Positions 3,581-58,069 of a stretch of DNA of 64,000 nt are shown piece by piece (position 1 is the stretch's first letter; each line of letters begins with the position of its first letter). The notes below the pieces were generated by a model. It had not been told where the DNA came from. It saw nothing but the letters and a program-made list of their open reading frames with translations, and ran no database searches. Origin of the DNA: Zygaena filipendulae (taxonomy: Eukaryota > Arthropoda > Insecta > Lepidoptera > Zygaenidae); contig OU015655.1 in the NCBI GenBank assembly GCA_907165275.2, positions 6,336,501 to 6,400,500 of the forward strand, read 5' to 3'. The position numbers and the translations under genes are program-made.

Positions 3581-3641
3581 GTTGATCGCTTTGGTTGATC
3601 GCACGTAGTGGTTAGGTATATACCTACTCTTTGGTTGATCG
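3581..3641. repeat. three copies of gttgatcg split by two tiny inserts
   Basis: The 8-mer gttgatcg occurs at 3581-3588, 3594-3601 and 3634-3641. The gaps are 5 bp (ctttg) and 32 bp (starts cacgtagtggtta, ends tactctttg). The longer gap reads as the reverse of the family P variant at 24290-24310 with extra internal bases. The shorter gap equals its last five bases. Confidence 0.65.
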
Positions 3642-3655
3642 GTGGAGGTCGTAGC

Positions 3656-3674
3656 CAGAGAGAAGGTAATCACT
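3656..3674 (+). mobile_element. tiny insertion, family P, 19 bp
   Basis: cagagagaaggtaatcact lies between two copies of gtagc (3651-3655 and 3675-3679). Other family P members have longer flanking repeats, so the right edge is uncertain. Confidence 0.55.
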
Positions 3675-4467: not shown

Positions 4468-4487
4468 CTCAGAAGAATAACTAAAGC
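4468..4487 (+). mobile_element. tiny insertion, family Q, 20 bp
   Basis: ctcagaagaataactaaagc lies between two perfect 9-bp copies of agtaaggac (4459-4467 and 4488-4496). The duplicated sequence is the tail of the preceding dispersed repeat, so the insertion is younger than that repeat. Confidence 0.8.
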
Positions 4488-4659
4488 AGTAAGGACCAAG
4501 TGGGACCAAGTAAAACGTTCACTCTCGTTCGTTCATTTATTCATTCATCTCTCGTTCTTTATGTAACTTGTATTTTCAAGATGACATAAAATACCTACTT
4601 ATGAATTATGATATCCATAATAAACCATACGTTGTCGGTTTTTGCCGATGCTCATTAAC

Positions 4660-10332: not shown

Positions 10333-11376
10333 TCACATTTGCAAATTGGGTATACGAGTAAATGTGCACGGATAATAATTTGTTTTATAACCGCATTCCA
10401 TTTTTAGATAACGTTTCTCACCTTTTGGTACGTGTAGACAATATTGATCAGTGTTCCTGCAAGCCATCGCTTGCTTTGATTGTGGTTTAGGTCCAGAACA
10501 ATAGCATGGATCATCTGGATCTTGACATGGCATACTATCATAAGTATCATGAGCTGTAAGAAAAATCATAAAGTAATTATTATAAGTACCTACTGGTGTG
10601 TAAAATTCTACTCTTATCTTTTAAATAAATGAATTTATTAATATTATGATCATACTTGTAGGGCAAACGCCAAATCCGCCACCTCCAGAAGGTCCACCCA
10701 TTCCCCCACTGACGCCCCCAGCGCCTAATCTAGCGGCGCCGCACGCACAAGGATCATCTTTGGTCTGAAAGTCTTTTTGAGGGTTGCACGATCGGTCTAC
10801 AATTGTGGAGCCACCTCCTGTCGCTCCTAAATTTGGAGGACCACCTCCACCCTGAAATCTAGTAATAATTAACTTGCCAAAACAAGAAATTCTTAAAAAC
10901 ATCACAACTTCACCAGACTCTGCTCCATCGGGTCCAACGATACGAAACGAATCTTTCAGAGCTTGATAACTGACGCTAGTTGGGTCTTCAAGAAACTTCT
11001 TTCGAGCTTGCACGAATTCTTTGGTCATGTCAATTGTAGCTTCTCCCATTATAATTTTGGTTGGGAGACACCCGCATGGCAGTGACTTGTAGACCGTTAT
11101 TTTTATAGGAAACTTAGACATGGCCTTGGATATATCAGCTTCTTTAAGTGAGAAAAGGCAGGATTTGCCATTATTAAAGGCCTTAACAAAAGGCCCGCCG
11201 CTCTTAGCGATACAAGCTCCAGGATCATCATCGCATATCTCAAGAGGTTCAACCGACGGACACTCTATGTTCACACAGGTTCTAAAGTCCTTATCAGAAA
11301 AGCATGGACTTTTCACAAAAACTATTTTGTCGATTAGTACTTCGAGAAGAAAGAGGCCATCGTCCTGCTTCGCCAT
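10333..11376 (-). CDS. protein with N-terminal C2-like domain and Gly/Cys-rich tail (two exons)
   Basis: Exon 1 (11376-10656) starts at ATG 11376 and ends in phase 1 at donor GTATGA. Exon 2 (10553-10333) follows TTCTTACAG and restores the frame, ending in TGA; the total is 313 residues. Residues about 5-180 look like one beta-rich globular domain: it opens G-L-F-L-L-E-V-L-I-D and closes V-V-M-F-L-R-I-S-C-F-G-K. By recall this is similar to the C2-like domain at the N-terminus of MAP10-type proteins (DUF4497), which I cannot verify. A Gly-rich linker and a Cys-rich C-terminus follow. It lies directly upstream of the paralogous cluster and shares its Cys-rich style, but not the cluster module. 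Confidence 0.6.
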
Positions 11377-11514
11377 CGCTGGATATGCCTGGGGATGGGA
11401 TTTTAAAATATTTTTCTGTTTTTTGTTACATATGTAGGTACTAAAATTTTTGACAAATTAAACAAAAGAACGACGGGTATATTTCTTCTTCTTTAAAATG
11501 TTAGCGTAACTGAC

Positions 11515-11537
11515 CAGAGAGAAGGTAATCACTACGT
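11515..11537 (+). mobile_element. tiny insertion, family P, 23 bp
   Basis: The insert begins cagagagaagg and ends tcactacgt. It lies between perfect 9-bp repeats gtaactgac (11506-11514 and 11538-11546). Confidence 0.8.
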
Positions 11538-11627
11538 GTAACTGACTTTATTACGTGGCGGCGACAGAATTAAACCTTCTTTAAATTGTTCATATTGCAA
11601 ATCCTTAGTCCTTACTATCACTACGAG

Positions 11628-11650
11628 CAGAGAGAAGGTAATCACTACGT
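11628..11650 (+). mobile_element. tiny insertion, family P, 23 bp
   Basis: The same 23-bp insert as at 11515, only 90 bp away. It is flanked by actacgag (11620-11627 and 11652-11659), with one extra t on the right. Confidence 0.75.
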
Positions 11651-11689
11651 TACTACGAGTACATAGTATAAAACAAAGTCGCTTCCCGA

Positions 11690-12533: not shown

Positions 12534-13099
12534 TCGGGACTAAATAAGTCTTTCTCCCGAGGATAACATTGTGCTTTTCATTACGAATGCAAGGAAAGTC
12601 AAAATAAAAATAGGAATTAGCTAAAGAAAAAAATGAGTGAATTTTATTTTACATAAATCAACCATTAGGTGTGCTACTGGCCAGTAAGTATGCCCCCTAT
12701 GACATAAAAAAAAAACTTGAGTTTCTGCGGTACCCAGCTGTCAGTTGAAAGCGATTCTTTCCGAAAGTAGGTCTGAAGTTGCCTGAGAATGATATTTTTC
12801 ATTACTCATACTCGGAAAGTAGGTCTGAAGTTGCCTGAGAAGCGGGTTGAAAGTAACCCTTTTCAGCCCTAGGGAGAATCGCTTTCAACTGACAGCTGGA
12901 TACTGCAGAAACTCAAGTTTTTTTTTATGTCATAGGGGGCATACTTACTGGCCAGTAGCACACCTAATGGTTGATTTATGTAAAATAAAATTCACCCATT
13001 TTTTTCTTTAGCTAATTCCTATTTTTATTTTGACTTTCCTTGCATTCGTAATGAAAAGCACAGTGTTATCCTCGGGAGAAAGACTTATTTAGTCCCTCG
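12534..13099. repeat. fold-back element with ~224-bp inverted arms
   Basis: 12534-12757 and 12877-13099 are near-perfect inverted copies (arms include 'gtgctactggccagtaagta' and its complement). The 120-bp loop contains a direct repeat 'gtaggtctgaagttgcctga' at about 12766 and 12818. A third copy of the arm end occurs at 12455-12510, facing 12525-12575. This is a non-autonomous palindromic transposon or a MITE derivative. No coding sequence is visible. Confidence 0.8.
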
Positions 13100-13563: not shown

Positions 13564-16500
13564 TTATTTAGAAAATTTCCGTAAAATACACTCGTATTTA
13601 ACTGTAGGATAATTCTCATTGTACCACTTGCATGCCTCGTGCTGGAAAGGACGGCCCACTCTGAAACACAATTTTCATATGACTGAGATTATGGTTTTTG
13701 AAGTAGGTAGATAGGTACTTACATAAAAACCTTGTTTTATGATTTTAGGCGCAACTTTTATTTACGCTTGCAAGTAATATTTTTCATGTACTTATTAAGT
13801 TGTTGCACTTTTTTATTTATTTAAAAAAATATTTCATTGACGCGACGCTTTACGTAGGTATCTGGAGACATAGGACTCTCGTGAGCAACACGACGTTTAC
13901 CACTTGAGTTTCAGTAACAAAAAACGCTATTAGAATTGGCTACTTGACAATTTTTTTTTTTGGTCCGTCGTGTAGATTAGTAAAAAATATTGGACGTACG
14001 TAATAAAAAAATAACGACGATACAATGAGTTAAAATTTCGCGTGACGTCACAACCCGGTGCAGTTTGTACGGGGCTTATACTGGATAATGACGTCACGAG
14101 TCCCCCACCCAAACTTTAATGCGCCTTATCTATGTTTATTTTCATTGATTGGAAAAATCAAAAAATACCTACGTGTTTATTATTTTTTCATTTTCTAACT
14201 GACGGACTAATTAGAATTTTGATTTTCATACCCTGGAAAATACTTAATTAAACGTTTTTTTGGATTTTCAGTGCACTCGTAAAACTCGTACCTAACAGGG
14301 CCCTTATTCACAATAACGCGTCGCGTTAAGATAAGGCGCCACTTAAATTGCTTTTCCCTCGTGTTCAAATAAGTTTCACTTAAACAAAATACATTTTTAC
14401 AATGTTTCTTTTATCATAAAGAATATAAATTTCCTATATATTTTTGCATTTGGAATGTTTGGAATTGTGTTTTTGGGACGCGCGTTATGGGCAAGGAATG
14501 TTGTTGGTCATAGTGAATAAGGGCCTAAGTATTCTCATTTCTCGTTATCGTTACCTCGATCCGTAGTGACACAGTGACCAGTAGGCCGCGAGTATTAACC
14601 CTTTATGGCGCAAGGTCATTATTTATATTAAGTTTACACAAACTAGGTTGCAAATAGGGATTTATTAGGGGAAGGAGGGGCATGATGGGGTAGCTAAGGG
14701 AAATAACAAAAATACAGCATAATCACTGTGTTTATTACTCTTATAAAATTATAACACGTTAGTTCATTAATCTAACTATGATTTGGTACAGTCTTTGAAG
14801 TATCAACTTATCACATTTTTTAATAATTAATCATTAATAAGAACATTATGAAAAACCATCTTGCCCCATACTATGGGGTATGATGGGGTAGTGAAATTGG
14901 GGCAAAATGGGGAAGGCTAATCATTCTCATAAAACAAACAAATGTGTATTTCCTTCCGATCTTCATTGTCCACGCCTTTTGTCTTTCCATTTTTAACTGC
15001 CAATTGATATGGTAGACGTTCCAGTTCATTAGTTATTAGTCCAAAAAGATGGTTTTCCATATATTTCAGATATTCTTCTATTTCGTCTTCTTCATCAGGT
15101 GTAAATGTATTTTTTTTCGAGATTAAAAGGTAAACTAATAGTAACTTCACCACTTTCCTTCAGTTTCTTATCATATTGCTCTAAAGTAGTCTGAGCCACA
15201 TTATATGCAGAAGTAATTTTTTGTATCCCATCTCTTTGCTTAAAACTTTACCAATAGCTGTTTTAATAGCATCTTTCGACAACTCTCCTCTTTTGGTTTT
15301 TTTCTTGTAAGTACTTACCATGATTTAACCTAAAAGAAAATTAACCAATGTTATTTATTTTGAAATTTAAATGAACCCAGACCCACAACCCCATTTTGCC
15401 CCAATGCCCTATCATGCCCCACACCAAATACCCCATCTTGCCTCAAAAGGTAAATTTGAACAAAAATAAATTTTACTAATAAAATGTTTAACGGATTCAT
15501 ACAAACAACATACCATATCAAAATAAACAATACTAGTAAACAAAGATCAAAAAGACATAAATGTGGTGATCATAATTACCTTAAAATAATGACGTTTGAC
15601 CTTACACAAAATTGGATCGTCAAAACGTCAAAACAGTTTTCCGTTTCGCACTCCCACTTACAATTTCTCTCGCGCTGACCGTTGGTCGAATGAGGCTTCC
15701 CATTGCCTTATTGCTTTCTATCCACAAACGTCTGGTTTCTTGTATATGTGCAGTACCCCGTCTTACCTCGAGACCCCGTCATGCCCCCCCTTCCCCTAAT
15801 GGGAAAAATAATTTAAAAAATCTCATTACAAAATAAGTATGTATTATTCCAAAAAAAACACGAGTTGCAGGAATACAACATTGGTTCATTAATGCTAATA
15901 ATGTAAAGAAAGTTATGAATTTTTTTAATTTTTTTATTTTTTTTAATTTTTTTAATTTTTTTAAAAAGCTAACCCCACATTTTTCGCAAACTGTCTACGT
16001 ATACCCTGTGCAGCCTGGAAATTTGCACCTCACTCTTTTATTTACCCAAACTGGCCAGTGCCCGTATTGGTCCAACCTCACATCTTTCGGAGGAACATGT
16101 TGAGCTGGACCGTTCTTCTTTGTAATGTGAATAAGACATTCAATATCACTTTTACGCTTTGTACGATTATATATTTGCATAATGTCTCTGATTTAGCTAC
16201 ACTAAATTCAGCAGAGTTGAGAGTTTTACTGCTACCACCCTCTGCAGCCTTTATTCTTCGGTATAAAAGCCATGAATTACACATAGTCATGTCTAAAAAA
16301 TGATAAAAAATTCGTAAACACCAACGTTTACTACGAAGTTTGATCTTATAGTGGCCCATCACAGAATCTAAAAGATCGACACCATCCACATTATGTTCTG
16401 CTACGACAAAAGGACGTTCAACAGAAATGTATTGCTTTCCAGACTTGTCCCACCTTCTTACTACAGATGTGGGATGTTTTCCAGCGAAATTGGATGCCAG

Positions 16501-19500: not shown

Positions 19501-21431
19501 AGCTCGGGTGTCGGTTTTTTGGACACATCAAAGGGTTTTAGCGCGTTATTTAGCGCAGTAAGCGGTGTTGGCTACTACATTAACGCCTTCTCATTCTGCG
19601 TGGCGCATGCGCGGAGCAAGACCGTACTTACTTTGTTTTGGCGGGAACAATAAAAATACGACAATGGAATGGTCTAAAATTACAGCTGCTTCTACCTCCA
19701 TTGCAAAAAAACAGCTGTTTGAAGCTTCGACCTCAATTTTGTGTTAACGCGTTATTTCACTAGAAATTAACGCTTAACGGCACGTTGCAAACTAAATGTA
19801 GCCATCACGTATTTTAATGCCTTAATTAACGTAGTTGGACATTAACATCAACGGTAACGTTAACGCAGGTGGAGCAGTAGCATTAGCTTTGCGATAGGAA
19901 ACTTCATTGCAGAGGTGCGTGAATTGTACCAAGATCTAATACAATTATGGCAATTATCAACAACTTACTTATATTTTTATCCTCACAAAACAATCTTTGC
20001 GTTGATCATTAAAAACGATCTTTATAACGTTCGGCTGCCCTTCAGTAAAACAAAGTACCTAATTGCAGATGAATAAACTTTATATAGGTAACAGGAGAAG
20101 CAAAAAACCGGAAATCGCTTTAATAAAAACAAATCTTTCATAGTTTAACTATTTTCTTAATTTTAACTTCTCTAAGACTAAAGCCTTAACAAAATATTTT
20201 TTATTTATTATTATTTATTATTTAAGACTTAAGCCTTTTTGATGGTTGTGGGTAGCAAAGTCCGTAATGCATGAAAGAAGGCAAGGATACAAAAAAACTC
20301 ATTTCGAAAAAAATTGTTTACCTACTCCGTAGAGCAGCCGCGTTGTTGATCATCATTGAGTAAATACCTTTTAATGATACTTCACCTACTACCAGTAGGT
20401 AAATAAGTGGGAAATGATAGACGCACAGATGATATAGGTAGGTACTTAGGTACCTGGAATAGATTACTACGTAACCCAAGTGTTTGAAGTTACTTAGCAC
20501 TTTTTTCCTTGTAGTTAATTGCAACCTCAGACGAAATAAAAAGATTGCAACTTGAAACAAACGCGTTCTGTGTTGGCTCGCTTTACCATGTTTCCAAAAT
20601 ATACCTAGTAGGTAGAATTTGTAATAGGTACCTACATTTCAGTATTTACATTACAAATACAAAAATTTGCCTTCTTTTCTGATCCTCATCTTTATCTTCA
20701 CTAAAACGTGCAAACGATATATAAATATGCTATTTCCCATAAAGTTACTTTTGGACTACTTATACATTCTTTCACGTCCATGGTAATTTTGGTATTCGAC
20801 AAGGTTTTTGAGAAAACCGTTAGTGAAGAGTGAAACTCGCGTTCTAAATACCCACTAATAAGTGTAGGTACCTACCTACAATACTTGACTGAGATCGCGA
20901 ATTTGTGACTTTTTCACAATTTAAGTAAATTTTATCTGAACATTCTGAACATACCTCGGAGGTACTTCAACCAGCTCTCTGGTGAGTGGTTGAAGAAATT
21001 TCCCGATGGTTCGCTGAGTTAAGCATGGAGCCCGACCCGGCGTCAATGCCTCATCAGTTAGCACCGTCAAAGGGACTTTGTCCAACGCATACCTTGGATA
21101 GTATAAAGGCAGTTTTAAATAGCCTTACATATTATAAGACAAAGTCCTCCGCCACGTCTGTCTGTTCGCTATAAATTTAAATACTATTGAACGGATTTTC
21201 ATGCGGTTTTCACCCTTATCTATTGTTAAGAGTGATTCAAGAAGAAGATTTATAGGTACGTATATTTTATCCTGTAATTCCCGCGGGAACTCTGAACTTT
21301 TGTATTTAACACGTGTAGAGTAAAGTCGTATCTTACTTGTTAGGATCATATCCACCGAATTTCGGTACATTACTGTGCGGGTCGCCAGGGTGAGGTTTGT
21401 TCTCTACATCATTCATGTTACTCATTTTCAT
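13564..21431 (-). CDS. unrecognised 249-residue protein, six exons
   Basis: Exons: 21431-21337, 21092-20955, 19301-19153, 18486-18380, 17630-17467 and 13660-13564. All junctions have GT/AG, and the phases agree throughout (split codons K, R, P, none, E). The start is ATG 21431; the stop TAA at 13564 overlaps AATAAA. The protein is Pro/Tyr/Asp-rich, with no signal peptide or membrane helix and about eight scattered cysteines. Visible strings include V-P-K-F-G-G-Y-D-P early, A-L-T-D-A-Y-Y-E-Y-E in exon 3 and C-K-W-Y-N-E-N-Y-P near the end. I do not recognise the family. Exon 5 can be read on past its donor (GTTAGT), but only the spliced form keeps frame with exon 6. Introns 2 and 5 carry transposons. 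Confidence 0.75.
14105..14250 (-). repeat. MITE-like repeat, reverse copy
   Basis: Ends with 'gaattttgattttcatacc' near 14231, the complement of the string opening the copies at 18012-18160, 31795-31995 (duplicated at 40300-40500) and 44359. Confidence 0.6.
14302..14525. mobile_element. short TIR element (MITE)
   Basis: Begins 'gggcccttattcac' and ends 'gtgaataagggcc', inverted termini about 220 bp apart. It holds no coding sequence. A fragment with the same end lies at 42576-42665. Confidence 0.7.
14668..15796 (-). mobile_element. pogo/Tigger-like element nested in the piggyBac element
   Basis: Inverted termini begin ggggaagg and end ccttcccc, bounded by TA (14666-14667 and 15797-15798). 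Subterminal motifs of the type 'ccccatcttgcc' and 'catgatggggta' repeat several times near both ends. The interior holds a decayed transposase start on the minus strand. Confidence 0.75.
14917..15321 (-). pseudogene. broken pogo-type transposase N-terminus
   Basis: ATG at 15321 opens a basic stretch (K-K-K-T-K-R-G). A frameshift is then needed to read the helix-turn-helix (Y-N-V-A-Q-T-T-L), and another to reach F-T-P-D-E-E-D-E-I-E-E-Y-L, which resembles the segment after the psq-type helix in pogo transposases. No DDE domain is present, so it cannot encode a working enzyme. Confidence 0.6.
16078..17088 (-). pseudogene. piggyBac transposase with central catalytic region deleted
   Basis: 17088-16558 encodes the acidic, Ser-rich N-terminal part (D-P-E-R-I-L, then runs of D/S/T) up to the start of the transposase domain. 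16545-16078 encodes the C-terminal part, with V-V-A-W-R-D-N-K, N-V-D-G-V-D-L-L-D and W-C-L-R-I-F-Y-H-F-L-D. Only 12 bp and a stop separate the two, so roughly half of a normal piggyBac transposase, including most of the DDD core, is gone. A splice acceptor near 17060 may precede the first piece. Confidence 0.8.
17985..18160 (+). repeat. MITE-like repeat
   Basis: Contains 'tatgaaaatcaaaattctat', 'ttagtccgtca' and 'aagataaaacgcattgaagt'. The same order occurs at 31795-31995 and, reversed, at 14105-14250. It lies in intron 4 region of the 249-residue gene. Confidence 0.6.
19373..19882. mobile_element. TIR element of about 510 bp with TTA duplication
   Basis: The inverted ends are 'tgctactgctacacctgcg' and its near complement at 19863-19882, bordered by TTA on both sides (19370-19372 and 19883-19885). 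A 3-bp TWA duplication suggests the PIF/Harbinger superfamily. The interior carries many 'gttaacg' repeats and no transposase. It lies in intron 2 of the 249-residue gene. Confidence 0.7.
21130..21320 (-). repeat. decayed dispersed repeat in intron 1
   Basis: Reverse 'tttcacccgcg' family: 'gacaaagtcctccgccacgt', 'gaacggattttcatgcggttt', 'attcccgcgggaactc'. Confidence 0.65.
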
Positions 21432-22417
21432 TTAAAAATGCCAAATAGGTATATTTATTTCTGAATTTTAATTCTACATTTTTAGTCCACGTTTTACTTG
21501 AAAATTTAGAAATTTGACATAAACCTTACTACGTGGTTTGATTGTACATTAGAAAATATGTTTTACTAAGAGAATATAGTCGCTGATGTTTTACAAATAA
21601 TCAACAAACTAATATAACCACTACCTTCCAAAGCTACCTACTGACGTAAACAAAGAGAGAATATAAACACCAAATAAACACTGCGTAGTACTAATAACTC
21701 AAGACTGTGACGTAAATCAAACCCAAAGAGAATTTATTCACCTGTAATGATAATCAATTATTATGATAGTTTTTTTTCTAATTCTTTCAATATCCTCAAT
21801 TCAACTAATGAAGGCGTACAATAGTAAAATGCAGATCTAAAAGATATTCCGAAACAAGTTTCCACAGCTAAATCTACCTACTCTCAACCTACTGTACTAT
21901 ATCTACACTAACATTATGAAATAGGTAGGTACTTATATTATAAAGTTTGACAGTTTTAAGTTTGTATGTAGAAAAAAGTCTCTGCAACTAATGAACATCA
22001 GATTCTGATAATTCTTTCACTTATGGATGAAAGCTATGGTGGGTATCTCTGAGTATTATAGAATACTTTTTAGTTTCCGAGGTAGTCCCTAAATTCAAGC
22101 GCAGGAAACCGTGGGAAACTACTTATAGCTATTAATACAAATGCGGATGGGAGTTTGTTTTACAAGGTGGTATACTTGTCTATGTGGCCCCTGAGTGTGG
22201 CCCACTGTACACTGTGCACTGTACACGCGTCAAGAGTAGTTAGACAGAAAAGGACATAATATATTATGGCACTTTTTGTCGCTGAATTCCCGCAGCAACT
22301 TCGTAATTAACACGTTTGAAACCACGGAAAAATTACGTATAGGTATTTATAATAGTAATCTGTAATTCTGTAATAAAAATTAACACACAAAAAAAAAGAA
22401 ACAAAAATACAAAATAT
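21432..22417. other. intergenic between the 249-residue gene and the TSP1 gene
   Basis: AT-rich; presumably holds the 5' flank of the 249-residue gene. No coding exon or clear promoter motif was recognised. A weak repeat fragment lies near 22270-22330. Confidence 0.4.
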
Positions 22418-23969: not shown

Positions 23970-24147
23970 TGGCGCACCCAGAGAGAAGGTAATCACTGCT
24001 TTAGTTATTCTTCTGAGGTAATCACTACGTTTGCACCCAGAGAGAAGGTAATCACTACGGGCGCACCCAGAGAGAAGGTAATACCAGAGAGAAGGTAATC
24101 ACTACGTGTTAGGCTCAGAAGAATTAGGTAATACTACGTGGCGCACC
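23970..24147. mobile_element. nested pile of family P and Q tiny insertions
   Basis: The whole block lies between two perfect 9-bp copies of tggcgcacc (23970-23978 and 24139-24147). Inside are at least four complete or partial family P units, with gcacc-type repeats between them. One family Q unit of 19 bp (23998-24016) is set inside a P unit and is itself flanked by a perfect 10-bp repeat ggtaatcact. A short Q fragment (ctcagaagaa) lies near 24114. This looks like repeated insertion into earlier insertions. Confidence 0.75.
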
Positions 24148-24199: not shown

Positions 24200-24222
24200 C
24201 AGAGAGAAGGTTATCACTACGT
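24200..24222 (+). mobile_element. tiny insertion, family P, 23 bp
   Basis: Differs from the 11515 copy at one base. Perfect 8-bp flanks tgcgcacc (24192-24199 and 24223-24230). Confidence 0.8.
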
Positions 24223-24289
24223 TGCGCACCCAGAGTATACCTATTAGATTATAATATCTTTGGAGTATAAAACCAAACGCAGTGGTTAT

Positions 24290-24310
24290 CAAAGAGTATA
24301 TAACCACTAC
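24290..24310 (+). mobile_element. tiny insertion, diverged family P, 21 bp
   Basis: Begins caaagagtata and ends aaccactac. It aligns without gaps to family P with about five changes. Perfect 8-bp flanks gtggttat (24282-24289 and 24311-24318). Confidence 0.75.
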
Positions 24311-24320
24311 GTGGTTATAT

Positions 24321-24342
24321 TCAGAGAGAAGGTAATCACTAC
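24321..24342 (+). mobile_element. tiny insertion, family P, 22 bp
   Basis: tcagagagaagg...tcactac lies between perfect 8-bp repeats ggttatat (24313-24320 and 24343-24350). Confidence 0.8.
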
Positions 24343-24350
24343 GGTTATAT

Positions 24351-24383
24351 CTCAGAAGAATATGCTTTAGTTATTCTTCTGAG
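24351..24383. mobile_element. tiny insertion, family Q, 33 bp, palindromic ends
   Basis: Starts ctcagaagaata and ends ttattcttctgag. It follows directly on the previous insertion and uses the same target: a third ggttatat is at 24384-24391. Confidence 0.8.
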
Positions 24384-24462
24384 GGTTATATACTCTTTGA
24401 TATAACTACTACATGGACGCACCGCAGTGATGTGAGTTGTCAAAGAGAATGTCAGTTTTGCA

Positions 24463-24476
24463 CTCAGAAGAATAAC
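24463..24476 (+). mobile_element. tiny insertion, family Q, 14 bp
   Basis: ctcagaagaataac lies between 6-bp repeats tttgca (24457-24462 and 24477-24482). The identical 14 bp occur in reverse at 49380-49393. Confidence 0.6.
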
Positions 24477-24487
24477 TTTGCATAACC

Positions 24488-24520
24488 CTCAGAAGAATAT
24501 GCTTTAGTTATTCTTCTGAG
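24488..24520. mobile_element. tiny insertion, family Q, 33 bp
   Basis: Identical to 24351-24383. Perfect 8-bp flanks gcataacc (24480-24487 and 24521-24528). Confidence 0.85.
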
Positions 24521-24551: not shown

Positions 24552-24584
24552 TAGACGATTAGACGCCATTATTAAAGAAGAAGA
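24552..24584 (+). mobile_element. 33-bp fragment of the GAA-tailed retroposon
   Basis: Contains gacgccattattaaagaag, the same 3' end as the element at 24785-25049. It lies between 10-bp repeats ttcagaatat (24542-24551 and 24585-24594). Interpreted as an extremely 5'-truncated copy. Confidence 0.7.
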
Positions 24585-24749
24585 TTCAGAATATTTAAGC
24601 TTTCCATACCACTATACCAGTTATAAGTGGCAAGGAAGTAGTATTTTCTTTTTATATTGTGGCAAAATTAACTGCAAATATTTACATAGCTGGAAGTATA
24701 CGTTATAGCAAACAGGATAAGTGAAAACATAATATTATGAGTTCTGTAG

Positions 24750-24775
24750 CTCAGACGAAATATTGTTTCGTCTGA
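24750..24775. mobile_element. tiny palindromic insertion, 26 bp (R)
   Basis: ctcagacgaaa...tttcgtctga: perfect inverted ends around a 4-base centre. Flanks are the 9-mer gttctgtag (24741-24749 and 24776-24784). Confidence 0.75.
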
Positions 24776-24784
24776 GTTCTGTAG

Positions 24785-25049
24785 TTCTTCTTCTTCTTCT
24801 TCTTTAATAATGGCGTCTATAATTATAATTTGCCAATGACAATGTTTCTTAATAATAACAATCTCTTCATCTACTTCTTCAATTATGGCGAATCGCCAAT
24901 GACAATGTTAGATTTTTCCCCAAGTTAAAACATGGCTCTTTTGAAAGTCAGTTTCCTGCTCAGGGTCCAAAATAGATGCTGAAAAGTGACTGAAATAACG
25001 AAAAACGTGACAAACGTGTTTTCGATACGGCTTTCACTCGTCAACAACC
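24785..25049 (-). mobile_element. GAA-tailed retroposon, about 265 bp
   Basis: Flanked by 11-bp direct repeats gagttctgtag (24774-24784 and 25050-25060), both followed by tt. Read on the minus strand it ends in about six GAA units after gacgccattattaaa. A simple-repeat tail plus a long target duplication is typical of target-primed reverse transcription, hence SINE-like or a truncated LINE. No open frame is visible. A further 48-bp insertion lies inside it. Confidence 0.65.
24847..24894 (-). mobile_element. 48-bp insertion inside the retroposon
   Basis: Flanked by perfect 15-bp repeats gccaatgacaatgtt (24832-24846 and 24895-24909). Read in reverse it contains cgccataattgaagaag, similar to the retroposon's own 3' end. 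Confidence 0.7.
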
Positions 25050-25067: not shown

Positions 25068-25089
25068 CGTAGTAATTACCTTCTCTCTG
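25068..25089 (-). mobile_element. tiny insertion, family P, 22 bp, reverse orientation
   Basis: Reads cgtagtaattacc...ctctctg on the plus strand. Perfect 8-bp flanks gttttcag (25060-25067 and 25090-25097). The left flank overlaps the end of the retroposon's target repeat. Confidence 0.8.
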
Positions 25090-32260: not shown

Positions 32261-32517
32261 TGTTGAGGACGGCGGCCAGGAATAAAAAAAACTAATACTA
32301 AGAAAAAACAATAGCGCGGGGTAGGTATTTGTGGCGAGCGTTGGAAGCTAACTGAACAAATTTTATAATGCAACCGTCACATTAATATTAAGCACTGCTA
32401 CCCACATGATAACAATAATAAAAATATTTAGTTACATAGTTTATAAAACAACGTATATATTAATTAATTAAGTGTGATTTTATGTTTCAAGTGCTTGGCA
32501 GTGGCGCGTCCTCAACA
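32261..32517 (-). repeat. 3' LTR of the BEL/Pao element
   Basis: 257 bp, starts TGTT and ends AACA. The last ten codons and stop of the polyprotein lie inside it. On the minus strand a purine-rich stretch (agggcggaggc) directly precedes the LTR and may serve as the polypurine tract. Confidence 0.9.
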
Positions 32518-35500
32518 GCCTCCGCCCTAGTGTCGCTCTCGCGACACTCATCCTTCGTCGGAAGTAGCGCCACTCGTGTCGCCGGTCTCTTCATCGTGCC
32601 TTTGCTCGTCTTCACTTCGACCACTCTAACTCTGCCGTCGCTCCCGGTGTACACCTTCTCGATCATGCCCATTGGCCATGAGTTCCTCGGCATAGCGGGA
32701 TCTACCACCACCACGAGGTCGCCTTCGCGAAGAGGTGTCGTTTCTTCGTTCCATTTTCTACGCGGCAGTAGCGTGGGGAGTTCTTCCTTTAGCCAGCGTT
32801 GCCAAAACATATCACCCAGTCGCTGTACAGTTCGCCACTGTCGTCGAAGGTAAAGGTCGTCGTCGTTGAACACTCCTATCGCGGGTAAGTTAGACGACGT
32901 GCCAAGGAGAAAATGGTTCGGGGTCAGCGCTGCGGTGGCACGCGGATCGACGGACACGTGAGTAAGCGGTCTGCTATTAACAATGTTCTCCACTTCGGCC
33001 AGAAAGGTAAGCAGCACTTCCTCGCGGGGAGCTCGTTCCTTCATTATAACTTTCAGGCTCGTTTTAATAGATCTTATAAGCCGCTCCCAGGCTCCGCCCA
33101 TGTGTGGGCTTCCAGGTGGGATGAATGTCCAATCTACTCCTTTATTAACGGTAGCTGTAGATATCTTCTCGTTATCTAGTTCTTTCATGGCTTTTTTTAG
33201 TTCGGTATCGGCGCCACGTAGGTTAGTGCCGTTATCAGAGTAAATAACTCGCGGCCAGCCTCGACGGGCTGCCATTCGCCTCAGAGCCATAATCAGAGAA
33301 TCGGTAGTTAGTGTAGCTGCAAGCTCCAGGTGCACAGCACGGACCGTCAAACAGGTAAATATCACTACGTACCTCTTGAGTCTCTGCCTGCCCGCAGTAA
33401 TTTCGAGCGGGCCAAACAAATCTATGCCACAATAAGTGAAGGGTCGCTGATGATGCATCATCCTGGCTTCCGGTAGGTCACCCATCCGCGGCGGCGCAGG
33501 TTTAGCTTTCCGGATACGACAAGCTACGCATCGCGCCGCGACGGTGCGCACGGTGGGTCTCAGGTTCACTATCCAGTATTTTTGCCGCAATTCATTCACT
33601 ACCATCTCGTTACATCCGTGTGCAGCTTGTTCATGATAATATTTCACAATCAGTCGTGATGTAATATTTTTACCGTCCAAAATCACTGGATTTTTGATGT
33701 CGTTCGAGACGGTTTTCAAAGCGCCGATGCGGCCGTCAACACGCAGCAACTCGTACACATCCAAAAATGGCGATAATGTTCTTATGCGGCTATTACGTTC
33801 TATTTCTTTGTTTGATTTTAGTAAATTGATTTCACTTAAGAAGGATTCCAGTTGTGAGTTCCGCAATAACAGTCTTTCCGCCCTTTGCATAAGGTCGCAA
33901 TTAATTTGACGTATTTCCGTCTTCTTACATTTTTCGATAAACAATAAAACCATTGCTGTGCTACGTAATAACCGTAACCACGACGAGAATCGACTGGCGT
34001 CGGGCAGCGCTGCGCTTAGGCTGCATTCTTGTATAAAGTGCGTATGATATACAGCGTGATTTACTTCCAAATTTGTTTCGTATGAATCTTTTCTAATTTC
34101 ATTTTCTGACGGCCATTGCTCGCGGTTATTATATAAAAATTTGGGTCCTGTGATCCACTCGCATTCATTGTCTAGCTTGTAATTATTTATTTTGGTCGCT
34201 AGGTCGGCTATGTTCTCTCCTGATGGTATGTAATGCCATTCAATTGTCTCCGTCAACTCGTCAATCTCACCGAGGCGGTTGGCGACAAAGGTTTTATAAT
34301 TTTTAGTATTGTCTCTAATCCAGTACAACACAGTAGTCGCATCGGTCCAGAAATATCGCTTATTGACTTTAACTTTTTGTTCACTCTGTATAGTGCGTGC
34401 GAGCCGGCACCCAAGTACTGCGGCTTGAAGTTCTAGTCGGGGCACAGATACGTCTTTCACAGGAGCAACACGACTTTTACTCGCAATGAATGATACACTG
34501 ACTTTTTCAACACTCTGTATATCATTATGCATTACTATTATCTGTCTGAAGTAAGCCACGGCTGCGTATGCGGCGGGGGAAGCGTCGCAAAATACATGCA
34601 ATTCTAGTATGGAAGTACTTCTATCTATGCATGCGTTTGCTGTCACTGTCTCGGTGGGCAAGCTGCCGTGCAAGTTTGATCCTTCAGCTTTTGGAACAAA
34701 GTACCATCTTGGTATGCGTAAGCTTTCAATGGTTTTCAACTGTCTTACCCACTCACGAAATAAATTGAATAATTCATTTGTTATTTCTTGATCCCATTGA
34801 ATCTTGTTTTTCCATGTAGCTCGCATTAATATTTTAGCTTTTATTGTGAAGGGTGCGAGTATTCCAAATATATCGAAAACTGACATGATGACTCGTAAAA
34901 CTTCACGTTTTGTAGGTTTTCGTTTGAAATGCAAAATCTCAGCTGGTACGTGTTTTAAAGATAAATCGAACCCAAAGGCGTCTATATCAGGGTACCACAT
35001 TAACCCTAGGGTTCTCTCTGCATGATTTTCGATTTTGAATCTTACTGCCTTTTCATTTAAAGCTTCTTTTGGAATATTTTTTAACACTTTTTCACTGTTG
35101 CTCATAAAGTTTCGTATCTCAAAATCTCCGTGTTTATGTATTTGTATGACCAAATTTATGATTTCTATAGCTTTATTTTCTGACTCATAGCTGGCTATAT
35201 AATCGTCCATGTAATGCTCTTTCACAATGGCTTCTACGGCTTCTTTAAGTAAGGTTGAAGACTGCATGTCTGTGCTTTTTTCTGAGAATGATTTTGCGTT
35301 CTTGTTTTTAATGAATTGCGCTACGAATGGGGAGCAATTGGCGCCAAATATTAGTGATGTCATACAGTACTTGTTTACTTTATCACCCGGATTTTCTCGC
35401 CATAGAAATCGTAAGGCGTCCTGGTCGTCGGGTCTTATTTTAACTCTCAAGAACATATCCTTTATGTCGCCAATCACAGCTATTCGTTTTTCTCGAAATC

Positions 35501-38153
35501 GCATCATGATGCCCAGTAGTGGTTGTAATAAGTCGGGTCCTTGCAGTAGGTAATCATTCAAGGAGTAGCCGTGTGAGGCGGCTGCAGCATCGAACACGAG
35601 TCTAAGCTTTTTCTTGTTTGGATTGTCGACGCCAAAGTGCGGTAGGTACCAAGTGCGAGACGCAAGCGCGTGTGTATCATGGATCTTGCGCGCATAGTTG
35701 TTTACAAACAGATGATTTATTCGATCTTTATAGCGTTCAGCGTACTCGTCGCCAGCAGACAGCTTTTTTTCTACACATTTCAATCGTCTATAGGCAGTGG
35801 GGTATGAGTCGGGCATTTTAGTATCATCTTTCCATGGTAACCCAACTTCCCACTGTCCATTCACCAGCTTAGAGGTATTTTCCAATATCGATAATGCTTT
35901 TTCTTCATCTGCATTCTTCCGTGGAGCGCACGTAACTCCCAATGCATCCAAAGCAAATGATTGTTGTATTATTTGCTGCAACTCGGTGTCGTTGTGTGAG
36001 TGTGTGCAACACATAACTGACGCTGCACCAGCGCCGTCGGTGAGTGAAGAACTAGCGCACTTCTCATTAAGACACTCGTGTGAGTTAGAACGAGATAGCA
36101 TAGTGTCCGTCACTCCGTTCGTTAAACACACTCTCCCGTGCACGCACCATCCCAACTGTGTTCTAGTTGCATAAGGTTCATTTTTTCGTCCACTGATGCA
36201 CTCTAGGGGTTCGATAAGATGGTAATTGTCTTGTCCTATTAATAACTTAGGTTGCACGTTACCGCTGTACATATAAACAAAATCTTTATCGCACAAATGT
36301 TTATAGGTTTTTATGTCATTTTCACTCAATCTTTGAACTGGCAAGCTAAGTTCACTCATTTTTCGCGCCGTTAACTCGAATTGTTCACCCGTATTATTAG
36401 AAACTGTGAATTTAACGTTCTCAACAGAGCACACTAATTGTCCCGCGTCCCACGCACTACTAAAATGCATGTTCACTGATTCGCCGCGTAGTCCTGCTTG
36501 ATTAGCGACGTCAGCTGATAACAACGTCACCGTCGCGCCGTCATCGAGCAGAGCATACGTCATCACACTACTATGCGGTCCATGTACAGTAATTGGCACA
36601 ATTTTTAATAACACGGAACTTGAGTCAATATTTTTCACTGTGTTTACAACATCGCCATTCGAGTCGATGCCGTTTTCTTGCTTCTTCACTAAACTTAACG
36701 ATTTTTTTGGAACCCAATGTAGCAAGCGATGATGAGCTTGGTTGCAGCCGTCGACGTCACACGGTGTCGCAGAGCAAGCGACTTGGTTATGCTTAGATAT
36801 TAAACATTTGTAGCATAACCCATGAGTTCGTGCGAAGCTCCAACGTTCTCGCCGCATCGCTCGCTTAAATCTCGAACAGTCGGGTAGGAGGTGTTTTGAT
36901 TTTTTACAAAACTTGCACAACTCGTTTATTGCAGTAGGTATTTTTTCTTCGACAATGTTTATGTGGTTATGAGGTTTTTTTTCATCCGTTTTTTTTCTGT
37001 TATCCGATTGACTGTAGATGTAAGTAATTCCGGCTGCGGCTATCTTGTTCGCTTCGCACAGTAGAAACTCGGAAAATATTTGTAATTTTGCCTTGCATTT
37101 ATCCTCGTAACTGTACAGATAGTCTGCCCATTTTGCAATCAGTGCTGATGGGCACTTAGATAACACCATAGCTGTTAACTCTGGACTTCTTAGATAGTCG
37201 TTTTGGTTTAATGCTTCTACTGCGGTTACAAAGTTTTTTATTTTCACAGAAAAAACCACAATTTCGTTGTGATGCGATGCCGATAGGGGAGGTATCTTCT
37301 TTAGTTGTGACACGATTTTAGATATAATTATTTCCGGTCTGCCGTATCGTAACTCGAGAGTGTCCATGACGATTCCAGGTGTTGCGCCGCTGATGAGCGA
37401 TGCGGACACGGTTTCTCTCGCCTCGCCTCGAAGACATTTACGTAGCCTCCACATGTTTTCGGCATCACTATATTTACACATTCTTGTCGATTCTGTGTAT
37501 GCTTGTTTGAAGTTGAGCCATTCCATGGGGTCACCGAAAAATAGCGGTAAATCTTTACTGGTGCTTATTCGCGTTAAAAGCTCGTGATATTTAACTTCAT
37601 TTGCAGCGGAACTAACGGCGTCCTTGAGTGCGCAGGCCAGCAGCTGGATGTCGGTGGGGGCGGCCGCCGCTTGTTGCGACCCGCGTGCAGCCTGTGGCTG
37701 CTCCGGCTCATCCTGCGCACTGCGCTCTAACCACTGCTCCACTTTGTTGTTAATATCAGACATCTTTGTGCTAGTGCGACTTTTTTGTGACCTGCACTCT
37801 TCCAGTTGCGCGATCTCAGCGGCCAGTCTCTTTTCTATGAGCTCTTTCTCGATTTTAGCTTTAGCTTCGGCTGCCTCCAATTCGAGTTGCTTCCTGCGCG
37901 CAGAGAGTGATGATTTACTCGACTTTTTAGAGCACACAATATCCTTTTTTTCTTTGTTATCACTTATCTTACTACCCTCTGTTTTCGGTCGAGGTGTGAG
38001 ATGAGCCTCAAATTTTCTCTCAATTTCTATGTTTTCCGATTGTACGTCACGGATTGGTACTTCTTTTGTCCACGTAGACTTCTTTTCAAGCTCCTTCAGT
38101 GTATCTCTGCGGGTTTTCATTTTGTGCGGAGGTGGAGTTCTCGCGGCGAACAT
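32487..38153 (-). CDS. BEL/Pao Gag-Pol polyprotein, 1888 residues
   Basis: A single frame from ATG 38153 to TGA at 32487. Domain order (residues approximate): coiled-coil Lys/Glu-rich segment 70-125; Gag (DUF1759-type) 200-380; Cys/His clusters 413-480; aspartic protease with L-L-D-D-G at 535-539; reverse transcriptase 790-1060 with D896 and Y-M-D-D at 981-984; RNase H 1185-1320 with F-C-D-A-S and F-W-T-D-A-T; integrase zinc finger (H1507, H1512, C1542, C1545); integrase core D1578, D1640, E1690; and a C-terminal domain to 1870. All catalytic motifs I know for this class are present. Gag and Pol are in one frame, usual for BEL/Pao. No envelope gene follows. It should support copying through virus-like particles. 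Confidence 0.95.
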   Translation of the reverse strand: MFAARTPPPHKMKTRRDTLKELEKKSTWTKEVPIRDVQSENIEIERKFEAHLTPRPKTEGSKISDNKEKKDIVCSKKSSKSSLSARRKQLELEAAEAKAKIEKELIEKRLAAEIAQLEECRSQKSRTSTKMSDINNKVEQWLERSAQDEPEQPQAARGSQQAAAAPTDIQLLACALKDAVSSAANEVKYHELLTRISTSKDLPLFFGDPMEWLNFKQAYTESTRMCKYSDAENMWRLRKCLRGEARETVSASLISGATPGIVMDTLELRYGRPEIIISKIVSQLKKIPPLSASHHNEIVVFSVKIKNFVTAVEALNQNDYLRSPELTAMVLSKCPSALIAKWADYLYSYEDKCKAKLQIFSEFLLCEANKIAAAGITYIYSQSDNRKKTDEKKPHNHINIVEEKIPTAINELCKFCKKSKHLLPDCSRFKRAMRRERWSFARTHGLCYKCLISKHNQVACSATPCDVDGCNQAHHRLLHWVPKKSLSLVKKQENGIDSNGDVVNTVKNIDSSSVLLKIVPITVHGPHSSVMTYALLDDGATVTLLSADVANQAGLRGESVNMHFSSAWDAGQLVCSVENVKFTVSNNTGEQFELTARKMSELSLPVQRLSENDIKTYKHLCDKDFVYMYSGNVQPKLLIGQDNYHLIEPLECISGRKNEPYATRTQLGWCVHGRVCLTNGVTDTMLSRSNSHECLNEKCASSSLTDGAGAASVMCCTHSHNDTELQQIIQQSFALDALGVTCAPRKNADEEKALSILENTSKLVNGQWEVGLPWKDDTKMPDSYPTAYRRLKCVEKKLSAGDEYAERYKDRINHLFVNNYARKIHDTHALASRTWYLPHFGVDNPNKKKLRLVFDAAAASHGYSLNDYLLQGPDLLQPLLGIMMRFREKRIAVIGDIKDMFLRVKIRPDDQDALRFLWRENPGDKVNKYCMTSLIFGANCSPFVAQFIKNKNAKSFSEKSTDMQSSTLLKEAVEAIVKEHYMDDYIASYESENKAIEIINLVIQIHKHGDFEIRNFMSNSEKVLKNIPKEALNEKAVRFKIENHAERTLGLMWYPDIDAFGFDLSLKHVPAEILHFKRKPTKREVLRVIMSVFDIFGILAPFTIKAKILMRATWKNKIQWDQEITNELFNLFREWVRQLKTIESLRIPRWYFVPKAEGSNLHGSLPTETVTANACIDRSTSILELHVFCDASPAAYAAVAYFRQIIVMHNDIQSVEKVSVSFIASKSRVAPVKDVSVPRLELQAAVLGCRLARTIQSEQKVKVNKRYFWTDATTVLYWIRDNTKNYKTFVANRLGEIDELTETIEWHYIPSGENIADLATKINNYKLDNECEWITGPKFLYNNREQWPSENEIRKDSYETNLEVNHAVYHTHFIQECSLSAALPDASRFSSWLRLLRSTAMVLLFIEKCKKTEIRQINCDLMQRAERLLLRNSQLESFLSEINLLKSNKEIERNSRIRTLSPFLDVYELLRVDGRIGALKTVSNDIKNPVILDGKNITSRLIVKYYHEQAAHGCNEMVVNELRQKYWIVNLRPTVRTVAARCVACRIRKAKPAPPRMGDLPEARMMHHQRPFTYCGIDLFGPLEITAGRQRLKRYVVIFTCLTVRAVHLELAATLTTDSLIMALRRMAARRGWPRVIYSDNGTNLRGADTELKKAMKELDNEKISTATVNKGVDWTFIPPGSPHMGGAWERLIRSIKTSLKVIMKERAPREEVLLTFLAEVENIVNSRPLTHVSVDPRATAALTPNHFLLGTSSNLPAIGVFNDDDLYLRRQWRTVQRLGDMFWQRWLKEELPTLLPRRKWNEETTPLREGDLVVVVDPAMPRNSWPMGMIEKVYTGSDGRVRVVEVKTSKGTMKRPATRVALLPTKDECRESDTRAEAVEDAPLPST

Positions 38154-38189
38154 GGAAGTGTATTCCTGGCGTAGGTGCTAGATTCTATC

Positions 38190-42137: not shown

Positions 42138-45100
42138 TTACTGGACCCAGGAGGCAGGCACCCACAGCGGCTCAGACTGCACCCTCCAAGCGGCCTTTAG
42201 CAGCTGCGTGAGCGCACTCGCTAAGTCATCATTCACTATCTCCTCGTCGAACATGTAGCCGTACAGGAAATTGATACGATTCGACGAACGCAATATGTCA
42301 GCAAACTCTTCTTCCTGCAAACAAAATCGATGAGATTGAATAAAAAATAAAATAAAAAACACTTCACTTACTTCGTTCATTACAGTTTTATTATGATATA
42401 CCAGCGGTTTCCCGCAACTTCGCTCGTGTCAATTAGGAAACGTATTTTTTTTCTTCTTTTACGTTATCAAACAATAAATAGGTAAAAAGGGGAACTTTTT
42501 ATTCGGAAATTGCCACGGATACTCCGAAATTACCGCGAGTGAAACTGCGGGGGACAGCTATTTCTAATATTTTGGCAACTTAACGTTTGGGATTGTTTTT
42601 TTTTTTTGGGACGCGCGTTATGTATGGGCAAGGATTGTTGGCGGTCATAGTGAACAAGGGCCCTGACCGTGAACGCCCTGGAGCTCTCCTTGTCGAAGGT
42701 GGAGCGCGCGTGCGCCGCGGTGCGTGTCTCCGCGAGCCGCTGCATGGGCGGCGCGCGCACGAACACGATGTACGGCCGCAGCCGCGCCGTGCGCAGCATC
42801 TTCAGCGCCTGCCAGTGCGGGCTCAGCACGCACACGCGACCTGAGCGCACACGCACACGCACACACATCTATATCTATACATATAAAATGCTTTGTCATG
42901 AACGACTGATGGATCAACGCCCAAGCCTAAACCGCTGATCGTAGAGACCTGAAACTTAGAGTGTGTTCTCGGGCGTTGGGCATCCGATAAGAAAGGATTT
43001 GGAAAATTCAACCCCTAAGGGGATGAAAAGGGGTTGCAAAGTTTGTATAGAACAATTCCGCGGGAAATTCGAAATTATCGCGGGTGAAACCGCGCGGGAC
43101 AGCTAGTCTATCTATCTATATAAGTAAAAATAAATCGCTGAAATATATATTATCGCATAACTTCCAAACGATTGCACCAAATTTGATAATTCTTTTTTTT
43201 GTGTTCGTTATTGTCAGAATAAGGTTTGTATAAAAAAAGTTAGGGAGTTCCTGCGCGAATTCAGAAATTCACGAGCATTGAATCTTTGAAACGGTTAGAC
43301 CGATTTGTTCGGAGCCGCGTGAGTTCGGAATTCCCGCATGGAACTCCAAAGTCGTTTCATAAGAACCTTCTCCTTACGATAACAAACACAACAAAAAAGG
43401 ATTACCGAAATTGGTCCAGCCGTTCATGAGTGATCTCATGACCAAGAGAAATAGGGAATAAGTTTTATATAAATCGATATACGGTGATTCTACAAGCAGT
43501 CCCGTCGACATTGAAAAGGATAACTAGTCACGAAAGTCTATGTAAGAGCAAACAGTAACAGTAAACAAAACACTTAAACAACTTATTTATAAAAATAAAT
43601 TTTCTGACTTACCAGAGTTGATGATAGTTTCCACACTCTCTGCGGATGTTCCATAGAGGTTGCCTTTATATTCGCCGTGCTCTATGAACTTTCCATCCCC
43701 AATGTCTTGTTCCATTTTCTCGCGGCTCACAAAGTTGTAGTCTTTGCCGTTCTGCTCGCCAGCCTTCTGCGCTCTAGACGTGTCTGTCGGCGAAGAGCAA
43801 TCAGTTCAGACCAAACGTCAGATGTTACTGAATAAACGACTGTATTACCATTGTTTAAGTTTAAGCACCCCGAGAGAAAAATAGGGGCTTGTTCGGTAAA
43901 GTTCGCGACCGAAAAGTTCTCCATCGAAGATTGGTCAACGGCATTTCTGCTACCAGTGTTCGGTTGGGCACCAAATTTGGTCAGTATACACTCCCGTAGT
44001 TTGCACATTGTTGACACCGTGCGGGGTCGGTCACTGTGCCTGCTGGTCAGTGATATTGTGACTAATTTCTCAACGCGTTTCCCCGACTCTGTGAGTCGAA
44101 TTTTGTACTTATACCTTGTTTTGTTGCTAAGTGTATAATTCAATCGTAAAAATGTTAATTATAATACTGGTAGTCTCTCCCGCGGTTCCACCTGCATGAA
44201 TTTCGGTATTCCCACGGGAACTCTTTTGTACCATGATGTGCATAAAGTTTAAATAAATAAATAAATAAACTCTTTTCTCCGAGACAAAAGTACCTATCCT
44301 ATGTCACTCAAGGATCCTGCAGTTTCCATCAGTGAAAGAATAGGCATGATGCCTGGGTACGAAAATGAAAATTCTATTATTTTCTTCTAGTTAGTAGTTA
44401 GGAGACGGAGTTCGTGACGCCATAACCCAAACTATAACCCTTTCGGCAAAGCATGCAAGAGATAAATGCCTATGAATTTAGATTAGGCACTTGTTTGTTA
44501 GTTTGTTTTAATGTGTTGTGCTAAATGTAGTTTCTTTATTTCTTTCTATATAAACTGTACCAAATTCGTGACGTCACGCGACATGAAATTCGTGTCCAAT
44601 ATTTTCCATTAGTTTCCATATGTCCAGAGATTAACAACTACATCCGAATTTAACCTCTTCATACTATAGATGGCGTTACTATAACTCACAGGGTATAGGC
44701 GTGACGAACTTTTCGGGGTCAGTCGCGATCAGCCTCCGGCGCAGCTCGTTCCTGCCGACGCCGGGCGCGCCCACCAACACTATGGGCCGGATGGACCCCG
44801 GCCGCGGGTACAGCCTGGCGACCTCTTCGTACGTGGGTATCATCTCGCGGTCGAAGTCATCGTTCTCGGTGATGTCGTAGATGATCTTCTTCACTTTGGG
44901 CAGTGTCTTGCATGGCAGCAAAGCGGTGGCAGTGGGCGACGGGGAGCACGGCGTCTTCGGCGAACATTCAGTACTGGCGGCGGTGCCGCTGCACAGAGCC
45001 GGTTTACCTGCATCGGACAGCGATCCTTTTTTTTTAGGTATATATATTTTTAATCACCTTTATAAAATAAATTTTATATGCCAGTCCCATTATATTATAT

Positions 45101-55544: not shown

Positions 55545-56200
55545 TATCACATAATTTTATCAACAGTCAGACTTAAACTTGACTATTTGGTTTACTTACT
55601 AAATTGACTAAAAACATTTTAAGACTCGCATTTTCGTAAAGTGACATCGAATTATTCAATGCTGAAATAAAGGATGAAGTTAATAATATCCCCAATTTTG
55701 TGGTATTGTAGGTAATGTTTCAAAAGCAATGGTTTTTTTAATCAGTTAAACCAAACTCGCCTAATTTTGCAAAAAATAGATATATTTAACGTCATCTTAC
55801 AAATCATTTTTCTACACATCCAATAGGTACACTTCTCTCTATTTCTACAATCTACTTTTCCAGTAAAATTATTATCTCGCTGCTGTCATCGCTTTAGGGG
55901 GTTGGGTGGAGGATAGAAAAATCAATAGGTTAGTAAGTAATTGTAGTTGGTGGGTCGCCGGTCGGTCGGTCGGTCGGTAGGAGGCTGGTAGGTAGATAGA
56001 TAGGTAAAGATTATGGTGCAAAGAGATTTAACCACTATTCTATGCAGAAGTAGGATGACTTTATTTTTTTTTACTCCGACTCGTCACCGAGGCTTTTTGC
56101 GTGTGAGGAAAAGAGATAAAATATACACACTTTTTTTAGAGCAGTTAGACTAGTAATAATATGCCAATGTCTGGGACACGCTAATCTGACGAAAAACACA
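55545..56200. other. 5' flank of the MAGUK gene
   Basis: No TATA box recognised. Contains a short GGTC tetranucleotide run at 55958-55976. A non-coding upstream exon is possible. Confidence 0.35.
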
Positions 56201-56247
56201 TTTAGTAATAAGTGTCGTCACTCGTCTGTGTCACTACTCAGTACTCA

Positions 56248-58056: not shown

Positions 58057-58069
58057 TTACCCCAAGCAA

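Follow-up and report, generated by a model that had tools for sequence, protein, structure and literature searches.

How does a sequence of some 22 bp come to stand at several unrelated places in an insect genome, each time between direct repeats of its own? The initial annotation of this locus had listed five copies of such a sequence, which we call P (CAGAGAGAAGGTAATCACTACG), together with two weaker members, in the 64-kb window (that is, the whole stretch of DNA analysed here). All five are present with their private flanks gtaactgac, actacgag, tgcgcacc, ggttatat and gttttcag, the start of the copy at 24321 being re-read as 24322. Specifically, a search of the window gave exact matches to P at 11515, 11628, 24038, 24085 and 24322, and near-matches with one mismatch at 24200 and at 25068 (minus strand), two mismatches at 23979 and three at 3656; the earlier list is thereby extended by two exact copies (24038 and 24085) and by partial ones at 23979 and 24068. 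Shuffling the window 40 times gave on average 0.0 matches to the 22-mer at three or fewer mismatches, as against the nine observed. Once low-complexity sequence is filtered out, the two 11-mers that recur most often in the window come from P (9 places) and from a second sequence, Q (12 places). The window contains at least three ultra-short families, which we call P, Q and R.

P and its relatives

Five of the nine matches to P have a flush repeat of at least 7 bp of their own. The 24-bp copy at 11515–11538 (plus strand; CAGAGAGAAGGTAATCACTACGTG) lies between copies of TAACTGAC at 11507–11514 and 11539–11546, a repeat that can also be read as 9 bp, and the 24-bp copy at 11628–11651 (plus) lies between copies of ACTACGAG at 11620–11627 and 11652–11659. 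The remaining three are a 23-bp copy with one substitution at 24200–24222 (plus), which is flanked by TGCGCACC and has another CAGAG directly after the right copy of this duplication, a 22-bp copy at 24321–24342 (plus), whose duplication GGTTATAT is common to the adjoining Q at 24351, and a 22-bp copy with one substitution at 25068–25089 (minus), flanked by GTTTTCAG. The identical 22 bp of P occurs at three sites (11515, 11628 and 24322) with a different scar at each. The CARAG edge of the unit is flush, the opposite edge is ragged by 0–3 bases (AC, ACG, ACGT, ACGTG or ACGTT), and the scarred copies of P are all 21–24 bp long.

Both of the weaker members are also present. One is P cut to 19 bp at 3656–3674 (plus), with a 5-bp repeat, GTAGC, parsed by eye; the other is a long relative of a variant that we call P2, a 32-bp unit (CAAAGAG...CACTACGTG) at 3602–3633 (minus) with the 8-bp duplication GTTGATCG, a third GTTGATCG lying 5 bp further left beyond a stray CTTTG. 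Further relatives are a 21-bp P2 (CAAAGAGTATATAACCACTAC) at 24290–24310 (plus; duplication GTGGTTAT), apparently within a reversed copy of itself, a diverged 20-bp relative of P2 at 21566–21585 (plus; duplication ATGTTTTA, readable as 9 bp) and a diverged P-like unit of 58 bp, starting CAAAGAGAGAATAT, at 21651–21708 (plus; duplication GACGTAAA). We saw no full palindromic P with a scar in the window, and an apparent hairpin at 24277–24312 that was considered as such can be read as one unit inserted in a reversed copy. The old copies at 1118 and 56019, which lack scars, are similar, as judged by eye, over the same size and no further; since the similarity ends at the same place, we rejected the idea that P is one end of some longer element resident there.

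Two-ended families Q and R, and units with one terminus

Q consists of CTCAGAAGAATA, a spacer and TATTCTTCTGAG, 33 bp in all (31 bp at 56526), and R is the 27-bp sequence CTCAGACGAAATATTGTTTCGTCTGAG. Copies of Q lie at 2513–2545 (33 bp, with a diverged spacer and one mismatch in the ends; duplication AGTATCAT), at 24351–24383 and 24488–24520 (33 bp each, with 12-bp perfect inverted ends; duplications GGTTATAT and GCATAACC, respectively) and at 56526–56556 (31 bp; duplication CACGGAGC), and R lies at 24750–24776 (27 bp, with 11-bp perfect inverted ends; duplication TTCTGTAG), all on the plus strand.

Beside these two-ended units there are shorter ones. A half-Q of 21 bp (CTCAGAAGAATAACTAAAGCA) comprises one 12-bp Q terminus and 9 bp of spacer, the other terminus being absent. 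It is found at 4468–4488 (plus; duplication GTAAGGAC), where it stands in the end of a dispersed repeat; a second copy of this repeat within the window (2334–2228, minus) continues through the target letters without an insert. The same 21-bp unit recurs at 23997–24017 (minus; duplication GTAATCAC), nested in a copy of P. The inner edge of half-Q is identical at both sites, and the same 9-bp Q spacer is present at 24351, 24488, 4468 and 23997. A half-R of 18 bp lies at 20526–20543 (plus; duplication ATTGCAAC). With its one flush and one ragged edge, P is similar to these half-units. In addition, a 14-bp Q tip at 24463–24476 (plus) is followed by the 6-bp repeat TTTGCA, and the same tip at 49380–49393 (minus) has the 6-bp repeat TCTGCC, both as parsed by eye. 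Terminal inverted repeats are present in Q and R and absent from P, half-Q and half-R; on folding, a Q copy and the R copy form perfect hairpins (z −5.8 and −6.7, respectively) and P, half-Q and half-R form none.

The absence of any fold-back in P, half-Q and half-R means that a two-ended mechanism does not explain them. They could be products of one-ended insertion, in which transposase attaches one tip alone to a target cut with a stagger and the remainder is trimmed during repair, an explanation that would suit the flush CARAG end and variable opposite end of P, the single terminus of half-Q and half-R, and the Q tips of 10–14 bp with 5–6-bp repeats that we noted by eye at 24114, 24463 and 49383. 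We regard this as unlikely: the stub is not random, the inner edge of half-Q being fixed at both sites and scarred P staying within 21–24 bp, and the two-ended Q and R are left unexplained. The initial annotation had remarked that only one terminus is present, which is true of P, half-Q and half-R; complete two-ended units of 27–33 bp stand beside them.

The flanking repeats behave as 8-bp target duplications

We tabulated the flanking repeats of 12 copies in the window (eight of P and four of P2), with edges set by the family consensus and free to shift by 0–3 bp at the right edge and by 1 bp at the left. This set omitted the diverged copies near 21.6 kb and the copies at 23979 and 24068; the copy at 23979 lies in a tandem locus (23971–24147) where GGCGCACC recurs. 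A repeat of at least 7 bp was found in 7 of the 12 own flank pairs (those at 11515, 11628, 24200, 24322, 25068, 24290 and 3602), as compared with 2 of 132 swapped pairs and 0.26% of 20,000 random sites. At the other copies the longest repeats were 5 bp (24038), 2 bp (24085, 3656 and 56019) and 1 bp (1118), and the four copies without a repeat beyond 2 bp count against the explanation that we favour below.

For the two-ended copies of Q and R, an exact 8-bp duplication was found in five of five, and none of 20 swapped flank pairs matched above 3 bp, in a test whose edges were set from the inverted ends and whose repeats had already been seen beforehand. A scan for inverted ends matching at 8 of 10 positions inside an exact 8-bp repeat, at lengths of 18–3000 bp, returned 19 pairs in the window, and the five pairs of 60 bp or less were exactly the five Q and R copies; 20 order-2 shuffles gave 1–7 pairs each and none of 60 bp or less. 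A general repeat scan (106 pairs versus 42–49 in five shuffles) includes duplicated retrotransposon sequence, and we do not use it as proof.

Taken together, identical 8-mers flank 17 sites, in a set where right edges were shifted by up to 2 bp and the right edges of P were chosen with the repeat in view. Cross-matches between sites number 2 of 272, both from the site common to one P and one Q, and the ninth base also matches at 7 of the 17. The unit is 18–33 bp long at 16 sites and 58 bp at one. Fixed units are found at many unrelated targets, with 8 bp duplicated and with inverted ends in Q and R. That these are independent insertions with target duplication, as the initial annotation had proposed, is supported by the rarity with which swapped flanks match and by the like behaviour of Q and R, again with 8 bp.

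The combination of one flush and one ragged end does resemble a retroposed tail, and ultra-short retroposed tails had been suggested for P. Retroposition by LINE or SINE machinery leaves a duplication of variable length and a 3′ tail; what we observe is 8 bp at 17 sites, apart from chance extension, with no tail and no variability in scar length, and inverted ends that are perfect in Q and R. Retroposition of tiny RNAs accordingly fits worse, and we find it scarcely credible; the same holds for an assembly artefact and for a linker artefact, and the latter, against which diverged old copies and nesting speak, was rejected.

Copies are clustered and nested

Our hand catalogue holds 29 copies and fragments in 64 kb, with 16 neighbouring pairs within 150 bp; 20,000 draws gave 1.9 such pairs on average and never more than 8. 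Of the 17 scarred sites, 9 fall between 23.9 and 25.1 kb. Several insertions lie inside or flush against earlier copies: we counted 8 of 18 in such positions (p 1e-8), a figure that serves as a guide only, since the counts were made by eye and ignore local duplication. In the tandem locus, parsed by eye at 23979–24139 (plus), there are three P-derived inserts with four (G/T)GCACC copies between them, namely a P with the half-Q nested at 23997–24017, a P at 24038–24059, and a P at 24068 within which another P and the tip of a Q are nested; over 23971–24147 the three inserts thus stand between copies of one GCACC-type target. At 24282–24391, P2 is followed by P and then by Q, each bounded by (GT)GGTTATAT, and at 24192 and 3594 the scar adjoins a further CAGAG or CTTTG. 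These arrangements suggest that existing copies either attract insertion or are the places that tolerate it best. The array that consists of P only may have been produced by local duplication, which does not readily give the order of P and then Q.

Clustering, with several inserts inside or against older copies, is also what might be expected if staggered breaks had been filled in, giving the 8-bp repeats, and patched with a short stretch copied from a nearby copy. Such break repair predicts random ends and varied repeats; at sites spread between 2.5 and 56.5 kb, the ends are fixed and the repeats are 8 bp long. The suggestion that repair drew on one template therefore fits worse than insertion, with ends constant at sites up to 54 kb apart, and we consider it highly improbable.

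A search for longer parents

The initial annotation had proposed looking for a longer parent with a matching end. We searched the window from 67 left ends for an exact 8-bp repeat out to 8 kb, and three pairs longer than 60 bp had a family-like right end (63, 81 and 3736 bp). The 63- and 81-bp pairs are neighbouring short copies. The third, at 56019–59754, comprises 3736 bp between TTATGGTG repeats, with left end CAAAGAGATTTAACC and right end ATATTCTTTGGG; it may be a long relative of P2 or may be due to chance, since its right end only resembles the family. The search also returned several unrelated long repeats, about as many as are expected by chance. One possible long relative apart, the window holds no convincing longer version of these units.

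These results bear on the idea that long hAT-type elements shrank in place, losing their interior by hairpin or microhomology deletion or by abortive gap repair with their duplications intact. Shrinkage would account for the 8-bp scars while respecting known end requirements (PMC10368747, as excerpted), the hAT MITE Mar is proposed, in the available part of PMC3517528, to have arisen by internal deletion, and the 3736-bp unit at 56019 is a candidate parent. The yield of three pairs from 67 left ends, two of them neighbouring short copies, argues against it, as do identical P units and identical Q spacers at unrelated sites. In particular, identical P at three different scars and the same Q spacer at four sites are not what repeated decay of long parents would give, and we judge shrinkage to be quite unlikely.

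Other elements in the window

No hAT transposase was found in the 10 of 36 listed window ORFs that were scanned against Pfam; these 10 contained a Pao/BEL retrotransposon, a DDE_Tnp_1_7 fragment, an HTH fragment and cellular domains. The MAP10_N ORF at 10621–11457 (minus) has lepidopteran proteins as its matches: the best named one, from Anticarsia gemmatalis, is 83% identical across 86% of the query, and two others reach 88–90% over 76–78%. The host is accordingly a moth or butterfly. A long open Pao/BEL frame (Peptidase_A17, DUF1759, DUF5641, integrase zinc-binding and RT) occupies 32487–38177 (minus), and sequences at about 30.6–32.3 kb recur at about 39.1–40.6 kb.

Several other repeats were noted in passing. 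A candidate DNA element of 979 bp at 56614–57608 has inverted ends that match at 10 of 10 positions (TATGGAGGGTAGAAGTAAGG...) and the 8-bp duplication ATTAGTTG. At 24560–24819 a 32-nt inverted repeat (TAGACGCCATTATTAAAGAAGAAG...) surrounds 196 bp, possibly a MITE that hosts R. The stretches 14452–14510 and 42590–42650 have in common GGGACGCGCGTTATG(TAT)GGGCAA between GGA(A/T)TGTT repeats and possibly represent another repeat family, and 12763–12841 contains a 27-bp direct repeat with its copies 25 bp apart.

A proposed cut-and-paste model for ultra-short units

The constancy of the 8-bp scars, the inverted ends and the recurrence of fixed units are pointers to a transposase of the cut-and-paste kind. 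Reading these sequence patterns, we put somewhat better than even odds (roughly 55%) on P, Q and R being ultra-short non-autonomous DNA transposons of about 18–33 bp that went in at this size through a cut-and-paste transposase, an enzyme with an 8-bp stagger that is most probably hAT-like and encoded elsewhere. In this model, in which we infer both the agency of a transposase of hAT-like nature and movement at the present size without later shrinkage, the enzyme would cut its target with an 8-bp stagger, leaving an 8-bp duplication around the 18–33-bp unit, and transposase held at a resident end might steer new insertions to the flanking 8 bp. More tentatively, and with a confidence well short of even, we suggest that P, half-Q and half-R might move as 18–24-bp single-ended units that next target the scar adjoining a resident copy, giving rise to growing arrays of scar, element and scar. 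To our knowledge, a single-ended unit of 18–24 bp would be the smallest transposable unit known, and if this single-ended reading is true, transposition would proceed without the need for two ends on one molecule.

If the cut-and-paste model is true, the occurrence in an animal of 22–33-bp units with clean 8-bp scars would lower the size floor of such transposons, the smallest in vivo size for bacterial cut-and-paste transposons being given as 64–70 bp in the available text of PMC3464196, and it would have to be asked how a transposase can grip the two ends of a duplex this short. Such units would also constitute a size class of mobile DNA that escapes any annotation with a lower limit of 50 bp (PMC9033116, as excerpted). 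If they are frequent, gains of 30–40 bp, made up of the insert and its scar, would supply lepidopteran genomes with small insertion variants from a source that goes unnoticed.

Comparison with known systems

The superfamily that usually leaves 8-bp scars in insects is hAT, whose inverted ends follow YARNG and whose scars follow nTnnnnAn in Ac and Hermes and nnnTAnnn in Buster. The CAGAG of P, which is like the start of hobo and Hermes, and the CAAAG of P2 fit YARNG, and the CTCAG of Q and R does not. Of 16 scars, 12 have A at position 7 (p 0.0004; 32 tests, uncorrected), 9 have C at position 8 (p 0.0009), 7 have T at position 2 (p 0.23), 5 have T at position 4 and 3 have A at position 5; the counts at positions 2 and 8 are weakened by the two-ended copies having no true orientation. 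Compared with the Hermes target pattern nTnnnnAn (PMC2803484 and PMC10368747, both as excerpted), A at position 7 is half of the pattern and C at position 8 lies outside it. The resemblance to hAT noted in the initial annotation is borne out only in part, by the 8-bp scars and by A at position 7; T at position 2 is unremarkable.

Like members of the hAT superfamily and its MITEs (for example Mar, Hermes and hobo), Q, R and P have 8-bp target duplications, and the inverted ends of Q and R are short, at 11–12 bp; unlike them, P is without clear inverted ends, and a transposase is linked to none of these units. The lengths differ as well. The ends needed are 200 and 150 bp for Tol2 and about 100 bp for Tag1, with a left-end limit of 140–190 bp for Hermes, according to the available text of PMC10368747, so that the hAT elements studied have 100–200 bp or more per end, as compared with 18–33 bp for the whole unit here; PCR fragments of Mar are about 270–450 bp in the part of PMC3517528 at hand. 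We conclude that the families work like a transposon with an 8-bp stagger, and we do not file them as members of hAT, given the published end requirements and the CTCAG ends.

Lepidopteran MITEs are likewise non-autonomous, with inverted ends and target duplications. In Helicoverpa, annotation by MITE Tracker accepts 50–800 bp (PMC9033116, as excerpted), a range that excludes units of 22–33 bp and that 16 of the 17 sites here fall below, at 18–33 bp; the unit at the remaining site is 58 bp long. Among the matches listed in the open-access literature we found no description of animal elements of 20–35 bp; a query for ultrashort or solo-TIR elements listed, for such sizes, a Paramecium paper only, and literature containing the family sequence strings included none on transposons by title. 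In collections that do not hold insect genomes, the P 22-mer had no match in viral contigs and its degenerate form none in genome contigs, and half-Q and P2 had none in viral contigs. Palindromes of Q and R in two and one viral contigs, respectively, were set aside as chance hairpins, their flanks having no 8-bp repeat.

Introners, as described in the available part of PMC9860276, are likewise small transposon-like units inserted many times; they act as introns.

The internal eliminated sequences of Paramecium are bounded by TA, are mostly single-copy and are removed from the somatic genome, whereas here an insect has repeated copies with diverse 8-bp scars, and the flanks are varied 8-mers. 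These transposon-derived sequences have a sharp minimum of 26 bp, below which P lies at 21–24 bp, and a peak at 26–28 bp that accounts for 35% of them (PMC3464196, as excerpted), and they provide the nearest precedent for excision of the transposase type at such a size.
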